In this document: in pieces, positions 2,740-7,666 of the stretch
Numbering within the stretch: position 1 is the stretch's first letter
How the letters are laid out: the number at the start of each line of letters is the position of its first letter
Assembly (NCBI GenBank): GCA_016207825.1
Contig: JACQZI010000015.1
Span: forward strand, 1-7,753
DNA: 7,753 nt
Direction of reading: 5' to 3'
DNA from: Planctomycetota bacterium
GTDB lineage: Bacteria > Planctomycetota > MHYJ01 > JACQXL01 > JACQZI01
The notes under the pieces: model-generated
What the model was told of the DNA's origin: nothing
Seen by the model: the letters and a program-made list of their open reading frames with translations, nothing else
The model's database searches: none
Made by a program: the position numbers and the translations under genes

Positions 2740-2760
2740 ACCCTGTCGAAACGGCGGGGT
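2740..2760 (-). terminator. GC-rich hairpin, terminator-like when read on the minus strand
   Basis: ACCCTGTCG (2740-2748) pairs over nine positions, two of them G-T wobbles on the + strand, with CGGCGGGGT (2752-2760) around an AAA loop. Read on the minus strand, the stem is followed after one base by TTTTT, as in an intrinsic terminator. No credible minus-strand gene lies to its right, so it may simply be another palindromic repeat, or a barrier to antisense transcription. Confidence 0.35.
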
Positions 2761-2785
2761 GGTGAAAAAGGAACGTTTTAATATA

Positions 2786-3211
2786 ATGAACGTGAACAAG
2801 AAACTTGGTTTTATTTGTGACGTAGGGTTCCTGAGTAGGAACATCAAAGGATTACGGAATAATAAGCCTCTCCCCTGCCTCGCCGATGTGGGGGGGCGCG
2901 TCTTTACGACCATGCCCCCGCGTCTTTACGACCATGTCCCTACGTCTTTACGACTATCCCCCTGCGTCTCTACTATAGAGACCCCACGGCGTTATGACCA
3001 TGCCCCCGCGGTCTTACTAGGGATAAACCACGGTCTTACGAGAAATACCCCGCGGTCTTATGAGAGATACCCCACGGCTTTACGAAGGACACCCCGCGGC
3101 TTTATAACCAGTGCCCCACGGTTTTATGAGGAGTCCCCCGCAGGAGGTACCGTACCTACCCCCCTACGTTTGAATTCACCAAATTTTGTAACCCTTTATA
3201 AAACAAGATGA
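2786..3211 (+). CDS. Doubtful ORF across the 22-bp array (141 residues)
   Basis: This ORF runs from an ATG at 2786 to TGA at 3209-3211. A purine-rich AAAAAGGA lies 13 nt upstream, which is too far for a good ribosome binding site; an in-frame GTG at 2759 is the other possible start. The first 35 residues or so look unremarkable. The rest is the translated array: because 22 is not a multiple of 3, three units give one 22-residue repeat, with P-R-x-Y-[DE] recurring four times. The other two forward frames contain stops inside the array. The conserved bases of the unit fall in all three codon positions, which argues that the DNA or RNA is constrained and not the peptide. There is no signal peptide, unlike the complete genes around it. 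I think it is probably not a gene. Confidence 0.2.
   Translation: MNVNKKLGFICDVGFLSRNIKGLRNNKPLPCLADVGGRVFTTMPPRLYDHVPTSLRLSPCVSTIETPRRYDHAPAVLLGINHGLTRNTPRSYERYPTALRRTPRGFITSAPRFYEESPAGGTVPTPLRLNSPNFVTLYKTR
2898..3139 (+). repeat. Array of eleven 22-bp degenerate tandem repeats in exact register
   Basis: The units start at 2898, 2920, 2942, 2964, 2986, 3008, 3030, 3052, 3074, 3096 and 3118, always 22 bp apart with no indel. The conserved parts are RCGG or RCGT, then TTAYGA near the middle, then C4-C5 at the end. The first two units are nearly identical (20 of 22); later ones diverge. From the unit at 2942 on, the first base alternates A, G, A, G without exception through the start of the degenerate piece at 3140, which points to a 44-bp higher-order unit. 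Just before the array is a run of seven G (2890-2896), where a C-run would be expected. It lies between the surface-protein gene and the operon leader. It is not a CRISPR because there are no spacers. Confidence 0.9.
3145..3157. repeat. Short perfect palindrome at the end of the array
   Basis: AGGTAC 3145-3150 and GTACCT 3152-3157 are inverted around a single C. This replaces the TTAYGA core where a twelfth array unit (from 3140) would be. A size of 13 bp suits a dimeric repressor site, but no regulator in the window points to one. Confidence 0.45.
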
Positions 3212-3214
3212 TAC

Positions 3215-3335
3215 AAATAAAATTGATGCCGAAAAAGTTACCAATAATTGCGAGTGAGCCATGACACAAGATGCAAGAGGGAAAAATGCTCTCAGTCGTG
3301 GCAGGGATAATATAAGCCGTATTTAGAAAATATAT
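3215..3335 (+). ncRNA. Probable structured 5' leader of the HEAT/TPR/esterase operon
   Basis: GCCATGAC (3258-3265) pairs with GTCGTGGC (3295-3302) over eight positions including one G-U wobble, enclosing a smaller AGAG/CTCT stem (3276-3279 with 3289-3292) capped by GGAAAAATG. TGAG at 3255-3258 could alternatively pair with CTCA at 3291-3294, so two exclusive folds are possible, as in a switch. There is no T-run. The element sits 34 nt before the Shine-Dalgarno of the first operon gene. It matches none of the riboswitch consensus sequences I can recall (c-di-GMP, cobalamin, SAM, TPP, glycine). The short landmarks GA[AT]GCC, ACCA, CCATG and AAGATG also occur in the same order in the leader upstream of 354. 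Confidence 0.35.
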
Positions 3336-3351: not shown

Positions 3352-5244
3352 ATGAATAAAGAAAACAAATTATATGGGTTGTTAGGATTATGGTGTTTTT
3401 TATGTTTCACCTTAATGGTAATTCAAGTTATGGCATGGTGCCCGGCTGCAGAAGAGGAAACGAAGAAATTCTTTAAGAACCCACCGCCTCCTCCAAAACC
3501 AGGAGACCAAATGAAACCGAATCCTGCTCCTGAACAAAAGCCGGAACCTCCTCTTCCACAAGCTCCAGAACCAACTCCACCAGCAATCCCAGCTCCACCC
3601 CCCCAAAAAGTAAAACCCGCCCCAATTCCGGCGCCAACCGTAAAACCGCCCCCACCTCCACTGCGGCCTCCGGCCGGGACAGGTATCGAACCGTTAGTTT
3701 TTAACCCGTTGTCTACAGTTCCGATGTGGGAAAACTGGTGGTCAAGAAACCGCCTTTATTACCTGCCATTTAAAAATATAATCCAGTGGGCTGATGATAT
3801 AAACCCTAAAAAAATGGATGACGGGACCCTTAACGTGGAAGCCAATCCAATCAGCAAGCAATCATTGGAGTTCCTTATAAAATGCCTGAAAGAAAATGAA
3901 AATCCTATTATCAGGGCAAATGCCGCACTAGCTCTAGGAAAATACAAACATAGAGGTGCTGTCCCGGCACTAAAAGACGCATTAAAGAATGATGCTAATT
4001 TTGATGTAAAGAATGTCTCGGCTTTAGCTTTGGGAATCATGGGAGAAGAATCTGCTATTACCGATTTAAAAGCAATCTTATTTAATGAAACGGATGAAAA
4101 ATCCCAGATGATTAGCCGCGCGTACGCCGCACTGGCACTCGGTTATATAAAAACCGAAGAATCAATTAATATACTGAAAGAAGCACTTGACCCAAACAAA
4201 AAATTACATAAGGAAATTCAATGCTCATCTATTCTTTCCCTGGGCAATATTCAGAATAAATCATCAGTTGATTTCTTGGGCAAAATATTGAATGATGCTT
4301 CGTATGATGAATATGTCCGGTCATACGCAGCCGTTGCTCTTGGCCGGCTCAAAGATGAATCTGCGCTTCCTTACTTGATAAAATCGCTGCAGGTAAAGGA
4401 AAGCACTATCCGCTCAAGCATCGCACTGGCTATGGGATTGATTAAATCACCTAAGGCAAAAGATGAATTGATAAATCTTATCAGCAAGGATAAGTCAACC
4501 GAAACCAAAGCATTTGCCGTGATATCACTTGCTCAATTAGGCGATAATAAGGCTTTCGATACCATCCATAACCTTACTAAAAAACCTGATTTTAATATTG
4601 AAGGGATGGCTTTTTTATCGCTAGGTTTATTGGGTAATAAAGCATCCATTCCGGAACTCCAAAAAATAGTGGTGAAAAAGACAAAGCCTCTTTCGCGCGG
4701 CGCCGCTATTATTGCTCTTGGCATGATGAAAGATATCTCATCCGTCAATACTTTGATTGAGGTTGTTCAAAAAGAAATCAATTCCGATCCTGTAAGCTGG
4801 AATTATGCTGTCCTTGCCCTGGGAATGATTGGAGACCAACAAGCCGTCCCTGCCTTGGAAGAAGCTTTCAAAAACGCCCAGCAAAGGGTTGATATGGCAA
4901 AAGTCGGTTATAATAATCTTACCATATCACTTGCTATGCTCGGCAAACGAAATGAAGTATTAGAAGAATTATATAAAAGAATCAGTGACAGTAAAAGTCT
5001 TCCGCAAATAAAAACCAGGGCACTCCACGGCATAGGGTATATCGGCGATAAAGCTTCTATTAAACAATTGATGGACTTCTATGTCGCGGAAAAAAATGAC
5101 GACCTGAGATCTTATGCCATATTAGCCATGGGTTTTATCCTGGATAACGAGCGGGTTAATCCTCTATATAAAATCACTGCTGACAATAATTTCGTGATTA
5201 CCATGCTGATTTTGAACCATATATTCTTTAGTAAACCTGAATAA
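3352..5244 (+). CDS. Secreted HEAT-repeat protein with proline-rich linker
   Basis: This is a 630-residue exported protein. The start is firm: AAAGGAG lies 9 nt before the ATG. Residues 1-28 form a signal peptide or anchor (hydrophobic G-L-L-G-L-W-C-F-L-C-F-T-L), with possible cleavage after V-M-A. Residues 44-109 are mainly proline, a stretch able to span or tether to the cell wall. Next comes W-E-N-W-W-S-R-N-R at 126-134, a tryptophan motif I recall before HEAT arrays in planctomycete proteins. Residues from about 165 to 620 hold some 13 HEAT repeats of 30-37 residues, each with an A-L-A-L-G or similar helix turn. Such solenoids bind proteins or other ligands and have no catalysis of their own. 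It is the first gene of an operon with a TPR protein and an esterase, so a scaffold role is likely. The fold is clear; the partner is unknown. Confidence 0.92.
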   Translation: MNKENKLYGLLGLWCFLCFTLMVIQVMAWCPAAEEETKKFFKNPPPPPKPGDQMKPNPAPEQKPEPPLPQAPEPTPPAIPAPPPQKVKPAPIPAPTVKPPPPPLRPPAGTGIEPLVFNPLSTVPMWENWWSRNRLYYLPFKNIIQWADDINPKKMDDGTLNVEANPISKQSLEFLIKCLKENENPIIRANAALALGKYKHRGAVPALKDALKNDANFDVKNVSALALGIMGEESAITDLKAILFNETDEKSQMISRAYAALALGYIKTEESINILKEALDPNKKLHKEIQCSSILSLGNIQNKSSVDFLGKILNDASYDEYVRSYAAVALGRLKDESALPYLIKSLQVKESTIRSSIALAMGLIKSPKAKDELINLISKDKSTETKAFAVISLAQLGDNKAFDTIHNLTKKPDFNIEGMAFLSLGLLGNKASIPELQKIVVKKTKPLSRGAAIIALGMMKDISSVNTLIEVVQKEINSDPVSWNYAVLALGMIGDQQAVPALEEAFKNAQQRVDMAKVGYNNLTISLAMLGKRNEVLEELYKRISDSKSLPQIKTRALHGIGYIGDKASIKQLMDFYVAEKNDDLRSYAILAMGFILDNERVNPLYKITADNNFVITMLILNHIFFSKPE

Positions 5245-5277
5245 TCTATAAACGCATAAAATGGAGTAAATTTGTGT

Positions 5278-5285
5278 AAAAGGAG
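5278..5285 (+). promoter_or_regulatory. Ribosome binding site of the TPR-protein gene
   Basis: AAAAGGAG lies 4 nt before ATG 5290 and 10 nt before ATG 5296, both in frame. The TTG at 5272 would place this site inside the coding region and is unlikely. Either ATG is possible, and the two products differ by two residues. Confidence 0.7.
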
Positions 5286-5289
5286 TACT

Positions 5290-6387
5290 ATGATTATGAA
5301 AAACATGAAAACCAACCTTTTTAGGAACGGGCCACCAAAGGTAACTGTAGTATTACCCCGTAAATACTTCTTCACCATAACGCTTTTTTTGTCCGGTTTT
5401 CTCATATACGGCCTTTTAATCATTTCTAAGGGGCTTTATGCAGATACGATAGAACTTCTATCAGGTGAAATGGTTCACGGACGGATTATCGGTGAGGAAA
5501 AACAAACTTTAAAACTACTTCCAGAAAACAAGGATGATAAATCCAAGGAAACTAAAACCTTTTATCTATTCCGCATCAAAAAAATAATCAAAGGTAATAC
5601 TTACCAGGATTACATGGCAAAAAAAGAAAAATGCCAAACCGCGGATGATTTTTATAGTTTGGGTGAATCCTGCAAGAACAATAAATTACCTGAAGAAGCA
5701 CTGCTAATGTGGGCGGAAGCGATCAAGATAGACCCCAACCATGAAAAATCCCGTAAAGCCCTGGGTCATAGGAAAGAAAACGACCGCTGGCTGACACAGG
5801 AAGAAATAAAAGAAGCGGAAGGATACGTTAAATTCCAAAACCGCTGGGTAAAAAAAGATGGGCTGGAAAAAGCCCGCCAGGAAGAGGCGAAAAAAAAATA
5901 TCAATCCGCGTATCCGATAAACATTAAAATCGGCGTGGTTACGGATGTAACGGAAGCATGGTTTGAAACATATCGTGACAGAATCAAAGAATATACTAAA
6001 TACTTATGGATTGCCAGCGAAGGACTGCTCTATTTAAATAACGTCGAAATATCAGATTGTTCTTCAGGTGAATTTACGGTGCTTATACCGCATCCATCCG
6101 ATGACGACAAATCAAAAAGCCAGGCTTACAGAAGTTGTGCCGGCGGGGTTGAAATGTCGGCACAGTGTGGCGCCCACATTTTCGTCCGCCAATGCGGTTT
6201 CGTAAAGCTCCATATCACAGCTCATGACGGTTGCATTCTGGAAAAAGCAAGCGGTTCTGTTACAAAATTCTGCGATGAATGCCTGACAAAAATAATAACC
6301 CTTTCCCCTAATGTCAAGCACCATCCGGATTTCCCTGAAGAACCGCCTGAAGTAAAGATAAAAATTACCAACAATAAACAAAAATAG
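5290..6387 (+). CDS. Secreted TPR protein with SH3-like N-terminal strand region and Cys-rich C-terminal domain
   Basis: The protein has 365 residues from ATG 5290. An unusually long N-terminus (about 25 residues) precedes a hydrophobic segment at 26-45, and G-L-Y-A at 48-51 is a good signal-peptidase site. D-T-I-E-L-L-S-G-E-M-V-H-G-R-I (52-66) is a small beta motif common at the start of planctomycete secreted proteins. One TPR-like hairpin spans about 107-150 (E-E-A-L-x-x-W-x-E-A-I-K-I-D-P). Two R-W-[LV] motifs follow, at 166-168 and 185-187, a pattern often seen after such TPRs. Residues from about 212 to 350 form a domain with seven cysteines, including C-D-E-C, consistent with disulfides outside the cytoplasm. 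Its start recalls secreted metalloprotease-like domains, but no H-E-x-x-H is present. It lies 45 nt after the HEAT gene, and its stop codon overlaps the next gene's ribosome binding site. The exact function is unknown. Confidence 0.88.
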   Translation: MIMKNMKTNLFRNGPPKVTVVLPRKYFFTITLFLSGFLIYGLLIISKGLYADTIELLSGEMVHGRIIGEEKQTLKLLPENKDDKSKETKTFYLFRIKKIIKGNTYQDYMAKKEKCQTADDFYSLGESCKNNKLPEEALLMWAEAIKIDPNHEKSRKALGHRKENDRWLTQEEIKEAEGYVKFQNRWVKKDGLEKARQEEAKKKYQSAYPINIKIGVVTDVTEAWFETYRDRIKEYTKYLWIASEGLLYLNNVEISDCSSGEFTVLIPHPSDDDKSKSQAYRSCAGGVEMSAQCGAHIFVRQCGFVKLHITAHDGCILEKASGSVTKFCDECLTKIITLSPNVKHHPDFPEEPPEVKIKITNNKQK

Positions 6388-6397
6388 GAGAAAAAAT

Positions 6398-7666
6398 ATG
6401 CGACGCTTCATTTCCTGCTGCTTTTGGATTGTTTCGTTATTGTTGGCACCTAATTATATGCTTATCACGGAAGAATCTGCCTCACCGTCTAAAAACCAGG
6501 GGCTTTCCTCACAGAAAAAATCCGAAGCAGAAAAACTCATCAAGAAATACTTTACGGTAAAAGATAGTATGGAAAAAACCGGGCTTCTTGATGAATTGGC
6601 AAAATATGATGAGGAAGTTTCCCCTTCAGACATAACCGCTTTTACTAAAACAATCTGGCCATTAGTTAAACAGGACGCCAAACCCGAAGGTAAAAATCCT
6701 GCAAAATGCACTCATCCTGATTACCCAGGCGAATATTTCATCTCGATACCCCCTGAAGCCAAAGCCGGTAAAAAAACAGGTGTTTTTATAGGATTGCACG
6801 GCTACAGATGTGAAGGGGATGACATGCAGGCTTGTTATGGTAACCCTAACCCAAAATTAATCGGAGTTTATCCGACTGTTATGGATAAAAGTAATGGCAG
6901 TGCCTGGAAAACAGAAACTGCGGAAAAATATATCATAGAAATTATCAACGACTTAAAGCGCACTTATAATATTGATACCAATCAAATCTACCTGGCCGGT
7001 CATTCTATGGGGGCACAAGGCACATGGTCAATTGGCTCCCATTATGCAGATATATTTGCAGCACTTGCACCTATGTCCGGGGCCGGTTCTACAGGAGGAA
7101 TACTCGCCAACCTTAAAAATACTCCCGTCTGGTTTTACCACAGCGCGGATGATAAAGTAATTTCAGTAGAGCCAGACCGCCAAGCCGCTGAAACTCTTAA
7201 AGCATACAAAGAAAAATATGGCGCATATGATTTTACTTACAAAGAATATTCCGACATCGGGCATGGATTTCCCAAAGAAGGATTCAAGCCGATTTGGGAC
7301 TGGATATTTTCCAAGAAACGCAATCCTTACCCTAAGTTTGTCATCTGGGAACCCACCCGGATTTATAAACAGATATTCTACTGGTTAAAAACAAATAATC
7401 CCCAACCAGGGCAAAGAATAGAGGCGAAAATAGATGCTAACAAGATTTTTATCCAAAGCGATGTTACGGAATTTAGCGTCTTACTTAATGATAAACTGGT
7501 GGATTTAAAAAAGCCGGTGGTTATTACTGTCAATGCTGATGAAAAATTTAATGGCTTAGCCGGGTATAGCCTACGCACATTAGTGGAAACCATAGATGAC
7601 AAAAAAGACCCAGAAATGTATTTCACCAGTCAAGTAAAGATAAAAAATGATGAGAAACGGAGGTAA
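6398..7666 (+). CDS. Secreted alpha/beta-hydrolase, PHB-depolymerase/esterase-like, with extra C-terminal domain
   Basis: The protein has 422 residues. AGGAG (6386-6390) lies 7 nt before the ATG and overlaps the stop codon of the previous gene, so translation is probably coupled. Residues 1 to about 28 are a signal peptide. The hydrolase core covers roughly 110-310: G-L-H-G-Y at 132-136 (oxyanion loop), nucleophile elbow G-H-S-M-G with Ser203, H-S-A-D-D-K-V with Asp252 as the likely acid, and G-H-G-F with His289. The triad is complete and well spaced, so the enzyme should be active as a serine esterase, lipase or possibly peptidase. Residues 325-420 form a beta-rich domain with a P-V-V-I-T-V-N-A strand; I recall a similar extension on planctomycete relatives. 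The linker at 29-110 is charged and of no clear family. The substrate (polyester, acetylated polysaccharide or other ester) cannot be told. Confidence 0.93.
   Translation: MRRFISCCFWIVSLLLAPNYMLITEESASPSKNQGLSSQKKSEAEKLIKKYFTVKDSMEKTGLLDELAKYDEEVSPSDITAFTKTIWPLVKQDAKPEGKNPAKCTHPDYPGEYFISIPPEAKAGKKTGVFIGLHGYRCEGDDMQACYGNPNPKLIGVYPTVMDKSNGSAWKTETAEKYIIEIINDLKRTYNIDTNQIYLAGHSMGAQGTWSIGSHYADIFAALAPMSGAGSTGGILANLKNTPVWFYHSADDKVISVEPDRQAAETLKAYKEKYGAYDFTYKEYSDIGHGFPKEGFKPIWDWIFSKKRNPYPKFVIWEPTRIYKQIFYWLKTNNPQPGQRIEAKIDANKIFIQSDVTEFSVLLNDKLVDLKKPVVITVNADEKFNGLAGYSLRTLVETIDDKKDPEMYFTSQVKIKNDEKRR

Follow-up and report, generated by a model that had tools for sequence, protein, structure and literature searches.

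The eleven direct repeats of exactly 22 bp found in the window (the whole stretch of 7,753 nucleotides that was analysed) belong to a class of arrays in which the letters of the unit are free to change while the spacing is nearly fixed. A total of 52 distinct arrays were gathered from six genomes of one order of uncultured Planctomycetota, where the period is 22 bp in all arrays and the unit sequence is particular to the locus in nearly every case. The arrays typically contain about 12.5 units (mostly 10-14). We tentatively read them as phased DNA binding scaffolds, probably for the product of an adjoining gene family, with a chance somewhat below even. The window is a complete contig (C15) from a 2.89 Mb genome (97.6% complete) of Candidatus Brocadiia, Planctomycetota, and other members of the host group come from groundwater and subsurface assemblies.

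Tandem Repeats Finder and a listing of the units place the window array at positions 2897-3138 of the forward strand, with a consensus of approximately C[AG]CGGYTTTAYGANNNNNACCC and 0 indels, and a circular-profile alignment spans 2897-3141 with 26% substitutions and 0 indels. Self-identity was observed to be 0.68 at lag 22 and 0.69 at lag 44, compared with a top identity over all lags of 0.41 in 2,000 shuffles of the array, so the indel-free array of eleven units described in an earlier note on this DNA is real. Columns C3, G4, T9, A10, A13 and C22 are invariant in the eleven units. The conserved columns listed in that note were found as described, except that the first four units read CGTC and not CGG. 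Column 2 alternates strictly between G and A over units 2-12 (GAGAGAGAGAG, partial twelfth unit included), and an alternating run of that length in any column appeared in 2 of 2,000 shuffles of the unit order. The note had taken this alternation as evidence for a 44-bp period. The alternation stands, but only for one column and as a peculiarity of the window locus: because identity at lag 44 barely exceeds that at lag 22, it is essentially no strong higher-order repeat. A clear 44-bp period was observed in just 6 of the 52 related arrays and is therefore not general.

An open reading frame (2759-3211) crosses the window array, and a coding repeat was considered and rejected since 22 is not divisible by 3 and searches matched it to no protein family. 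Together with the location of the arrays between genes, this indicates that the function is not coding, which agrees with the DNA- or RNA-level role suggested earlier. An Rfam search of the window gave no match. A genome-wide pattern search with the window consensus found no additional close copies because the unit sequences differ at other loci.

Evidence for constraint comes from the substitutions and indels of the whole class. In an alignment to circular 22-bp profiles with indels permitted, the 52 arrays show 3,021 substitutions and 6 indels (about 0.2 per 100), all six no farther than about 40 bases from the end of an array, and the divergence in some arrays reaches 35% substitutions. Neutral sequence gains 5-10 indels per 100 substitutions, a general figure that is not taken from these genomes. 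Simulated neutral arrays with this input were passed through the same detection and alignment steps, which recovered about 3-8 indels per 100 counted substitutions, or about 10-40 times more than in the 52 arrays. As the array seeds require lag-22 identity, old and strongly indel-ridden arrays are under-counted. Simulated arrays at 12% divergence were detected almost always, whatever their indels, and therefore detection bias cannot explain the indel deficit of low-divergence arrays. These results support selection on the spacing, as the earlier note had proposed; frequent indels were looked for in the relatives and not seen, and all other loci keep the 22-bp spacing.

The same counts bear on the possibility that the units are a satellite-like by-product of a replication or recombination process, functionless themselves and spread with the duplicating gene family. 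A by-product of this kind would account for unit sequences particular to each locus, for the strong divergence of some arrays and for the joint duplication of arrays and family genes. However, about 100-200 indels would be expected at 5-10 per 100 substitutions after pipeline losses where 6 were counted, every array in the six genomes has the period of 22 and copy number is stable among three paralogues, and we regard this origin as unlikely. Identity between units drops slightly with distance (0.69 at 22 to 0.66 at 110), and this nearly flat profile makes the arrays unlike recent stepwise duplications. In the relative G007, an array of 10.6 units (L036, 1-234) is 98% uniform, which indicates that freshly made or homogenised arrays coexist with old ones.

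Arrays are frequent in two genomes that carry the gene family. A lag-blind scan of 400 kb of the host genome found 8 arrays and 200 kb of genome G003 contained 10, so that these samples, which are not whole genomes, give about one array per 20-50 kb, recurring along contigs of 197-596 kb. Four genomes that lack the family, sampled over about 405 kb in total, contained no array; the same-order outgroup control (G004) amounts to 78 kb only. Other strong periods in the same scans (102, 93, 81, 21, etc.) look like coding repeats. At locus L199 we noticed two 22-bp arrays with unlike unit sequences (15844-16077 and 16145-16413) about 70 bp apart. Several ends of the G000 contigs C5, C8, C13 and C14 fall inside an array or gene, as expected if the repeats break the assembly, and copy numbers are therefore lower bounds.

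Diverged relatives of the window array are located on contigs C11, C5 and C20, where each is followed by the same terminal segment and then by an open gene (MGQDDTNENDAGK...). C8, and C14 at its start, carry further diverged relatives whose genes are broken. Three intact paralogous arrays match one another unit by unit, with stable copy number and substitutions as their only differences. The units of a second array pair, L075/L076, also match one to one and here the spacer is conserved too. Family genes and arrays duplicate together.

Side-by-side comparison of the units with the paralogous loci shows that, at 3139-3173 of the forward strand, a partial twelfth unit in the window runs into a terminal element, CGCAGGAGGTACCGTACCTACCCCCCTACGTTTGA. 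This element is the counterpart of an intact stem-loop, GGGGGGTGTGCCTACCCCCC, at the paralogous loci, with which it has an exact 17-base segment (TACCCCCCTACGTTTGA) in common, and its left arm has decayed. The decayed stem folds no better than shuffles (z 0.24, compared with -1.9 at L002) and no T-run terminator was found in the window. A remnant of about 19 codons follows on the same strand (3198-3257) and matches the start of the intact paralogues (L002 at 1631, L003, and L009 at 763). Its start codon is lost (ATA at 3198) and an in-frame stop, TGA, is present at 3255. A tblastn-like search also matched window positions 3068-3210 to C20. The family gene at the window locus has therefore decayed. 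The stem-loop, the gene family and the locus-specific units were absent from the earlier reading of this single sequence because other genomes are needed to see them.

The remaining window sequence contains several other genes. A glycine-rich protein with a weak AgmC N-terminal match is encoded at 207-2681, and the window opens with the tail of another copy of its C-terminal domain (1-176, compared with 2465-2640). This C-terminal domain also precedes the arrays on C11 and C8. Genes for a HEAT-repeat protein, an unknown 371-residue protein and an esterase-like hydrolase occupy 3352-7666, all on the forward strand.

At the gene-linked loci that were read, the array end facing the gene carries a stem-loop formed by a G-run and a C-run (G4-6...C4-6). 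Among all 52 arrays, a G4..C4 inverted repeat is present at exactly one array end in 21 (0.96 expected) and never at both ends. The general stem score of the terminal elements showed no excess over background, so the stem-loop claim rests on the specific G-run...C-run form, which was chosen after examples had been seen. The unit consensuses also have a weak core, RGGGRTA, in common, with an alignment information of 8.22 bits compared with 7.48 +- 0.13 bits in shuffles, and GGTA occurs in 29 of the 52 consensuses (8.8 expected). Within arrays the core was observed to be no better conserved than the other columns.

The gene family was found to be restricted to the same order as the arrays. An alignment of four proteins used as query gave 46 hits in the host genome and 28 and 20 in two others, and the family is present in 6 of the 9 genomes of the order. 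Elsewhere in the class, 14 genomes gave no hits, and a sample of 294 genomes from the phylum yielded none beyond the order. Searches against Pfam, NCBIfam, PHROGs, PADLOC and PDB sequences gave nothing above noise, and the viral, phage and plasmid collections contained no relatives of the protein. The family genes are real and constrained, as dN/dS in close pairs is 0.06-0.27, indicating purifying selection.

One clade of the protein tree (support 0.998) is closely linked to arrays: all 17 of its genes with at least 300 bp of upstream sequence have an array just upstream, where the top period is at lag 22, 44 or 66. When the 1.5 kb preceding each family gene was scanned without a preset period, 22, 44 or 66 also came out on top wherever any lag exceeded 0.5, and no other lag exceeded 0.49. 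In other clades the arrays are farther upstream or missing. Conversely, 2 of the 8 arrays in the 400-kb sample of the host genome adjoin a family gene, and in the samples more than half of the arrays stand without a neighbouring family gene. We also noticed a palindrome, GTAGGGGCGATTCATGAATCGCCCCTAC, within the reading frame of the family gene (L002 about 1878-1908, L009 about 1003-1033), which is translated as VGAIHESPLQ. At L097, L101, L104 and L113 the family reading frame continues in frame from a trypsin-like protease sequence (AAHVVG, GNSGGPV) lying upstream of it, and a fusion or translational coupling is possible.

An AlphaFold model was made for a family member outside the array clade (19 sequences; pLDDT 91, pTM 0.73). 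This confident model has mixed helices and, at either end, strands. No PDB entry matched it at E <= 0.001, nor did any known DNA-binding fold. The VIA-align rows (Z up to 5.2, rmsd about 9-11) are weak and were read as common helical arrangements. Those for TasH (Z 4.4, rmsd 7.2, 66 residues) are of the same common helical kind and were not counted as evidence.

Whether the array works as DNA or RNA was considered from folding, covariation and promoters. The units are not enriched in hairpins (4.29 compared with 4.06 +- 0.15), and base-pair covariation is not evident within them. Compared with shuffles, folding is no better in the window and L002 arrays (z 0.20 and -0.66), whereas the L189 array folds better (z -2.91). 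Without covariation and with no excess folding in two of three arrays, RNA models are weakened and the balance tilts toward DNA as the working form. A near-consensus promoter, TTGACA-17-TATAGT, was found on the gene strand 21 bp before the array in the L075/L076 pair. Upstream of arrays in general, the gene strand did not score higher for promoters than the opposite strand.

The main rival to the scaffold is an RNA role like that in type III toxin-antitoxin loci: the array would be transcribed into a repeat RNA that binds the product of the downstream gene or neutralises it, and the stem-loop would dampen read-through. The layout of array, stem-loop and gene is the same, the promoter of the L075/L076 pair and the folding of the L189 array would fit such a transcript, and multiple copies, some decayed, would suit a selfish or defence module. 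However, the hairpin, covariation and folding results above argue against this model, as do the missing promoter bias, the window without a T-run terminator and a protein that matched no toxin family in the sequence libraries searched. We consider it improbable, at roughly one chance in four.

In the scaffold reading, the array would be the cis-acting part of an unnamed module, providing about 12 direct-repeat sites exactly 22 bp, or about two helical turns, apart. The GC-rich inverted repeat would close the module on one side, originally followed by the family gene. A protein, probably the family product, may occupy neighbouring phased sites and build a multi-unit nucleoprotein complex, which would explain why the spacing is strictly kept while single bases are free to change. 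The array could regulate the gene beside it in cis, and where that gene has decayed, as in the window, paralogues could bind the array in trans. Several observations stand against this mechanism. For example, 22 bp corresponds to 2.1 turns of B-DNA and is not an exact multiple of 10.5, which gives a drift of about half to one turn over 12 units. Many arrays have no adjoining family gene and some clades have a distant array or none. Furthermore, the RGGGRTA core is not better conserved, the L189 array folds, and the modelled family member matches no known DNA-binding fold. The single helical face and the iteron or operator role put forward in the earlier note are possibilities only.

A more specific possibility, to which we give about one chance in three, is a two-part system in which an array of about 12 units, with locus-specific sequence but fixed length, is combined with a new family that would recognise its own array through the RGGGRTA core plus locus-specific letters. 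With tens of copies per genome in one Candidatus Brocadiia order, each cell would then contain many distinct protein-array pairs.

Letters that change freely under a nearly fixed spacing, at many loci with unrelated units, are a natural mark of selection acting only on length, and a rare one. The arrays and the family, with up to about 46 copies, confinement to one bacterial order and no sequence or structure match in the libraries searched, suggest a cellular or selfish system that is as yet undescribed. Searches of the openly accessible literature turned up no description of such arrays. Each named system with which the class was compared either differs in a defining feature or could not be shown to have it in common.

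The layout nevertheless resembles that of iteron arrays, type III toxin-antitoxin loci and TIGR arrays. Plasmid iterons are direct repeats of about 17-22 bp beside rep genes, and the chlamydial plasmid has 22-bp tandem repeats. Both are fixed-spacing direct repeats of similar unit length beside a gene whose product may bind, but the arrays here are chromosomal, number in the tens per genome, contain about 12 units and have their own sequence at each locus. Their recurrence every 20-50 kb along long contigs and a protein without plasmid or phage relatives do not fit a plasmid or extrachromosomal setting, and the adjacent gene matched no Pfam, NCBIfam or PHROGs family above noise that would make it a known Rep initiator. 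Centromere arrays of the parC/parS type, which are bound by ParR, also have at least 10 phased direct repeats that tolerate sequence change next to a binder gene, here a candidate one. Unlike these, the present arrays occupy many loci per chromosome, and no ParM or motor gene was noticed beside them among neighbours that were read unsystematically.

Type III toxin-antitoxin loci (ToxIN, CptIN, TenpIN) combine tandem repeats of about 34-48 nt in 2-6 units with a stem-loop and one gene. The order of tandem repeats, stem-loop and single gene is the same here, but the units are of 22 bp, number about 12 and have no consistent RNA fold, and the protein has no toxin match. PF13958, used as a check for the ToxN/CptN/TenpN fold, matched neither the host genome nor the control genomes. 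As a candidate for the terminator between array and gene, the stem-loop is present in 21 of the 52 arrays, and the window has no T-run.

A CRISPR array was rejected since there are no spacers and the period equals the repeat. TIGR arrays consist of two alternating repeats of 8-12 nt split by unique spacers of 9 nt (PMC12045711). TIGR-Tas loci have locus-specific units of constant length, 5-15 in number, with an end stem-loop and a single adjacent protein (PMC12045711), a likeness that would favour arrays encoding short guides, of TIGR or CRISPR type, for a new effector. However, the arrays here have no unit of two repeats and two spacers: the units are alike over their full length, and conserved columns are scattered (lag-1 autocorrelation 0.14) instead of forming repeat and spacer blocks. 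Nor does a Nop-domain protein accompany them, as PF01798 is absent from the host genome while the same search was positive in four control archaea. We therefore consider a guide array very improbable, and the resemblance to TIGR-Tas is one of layout.
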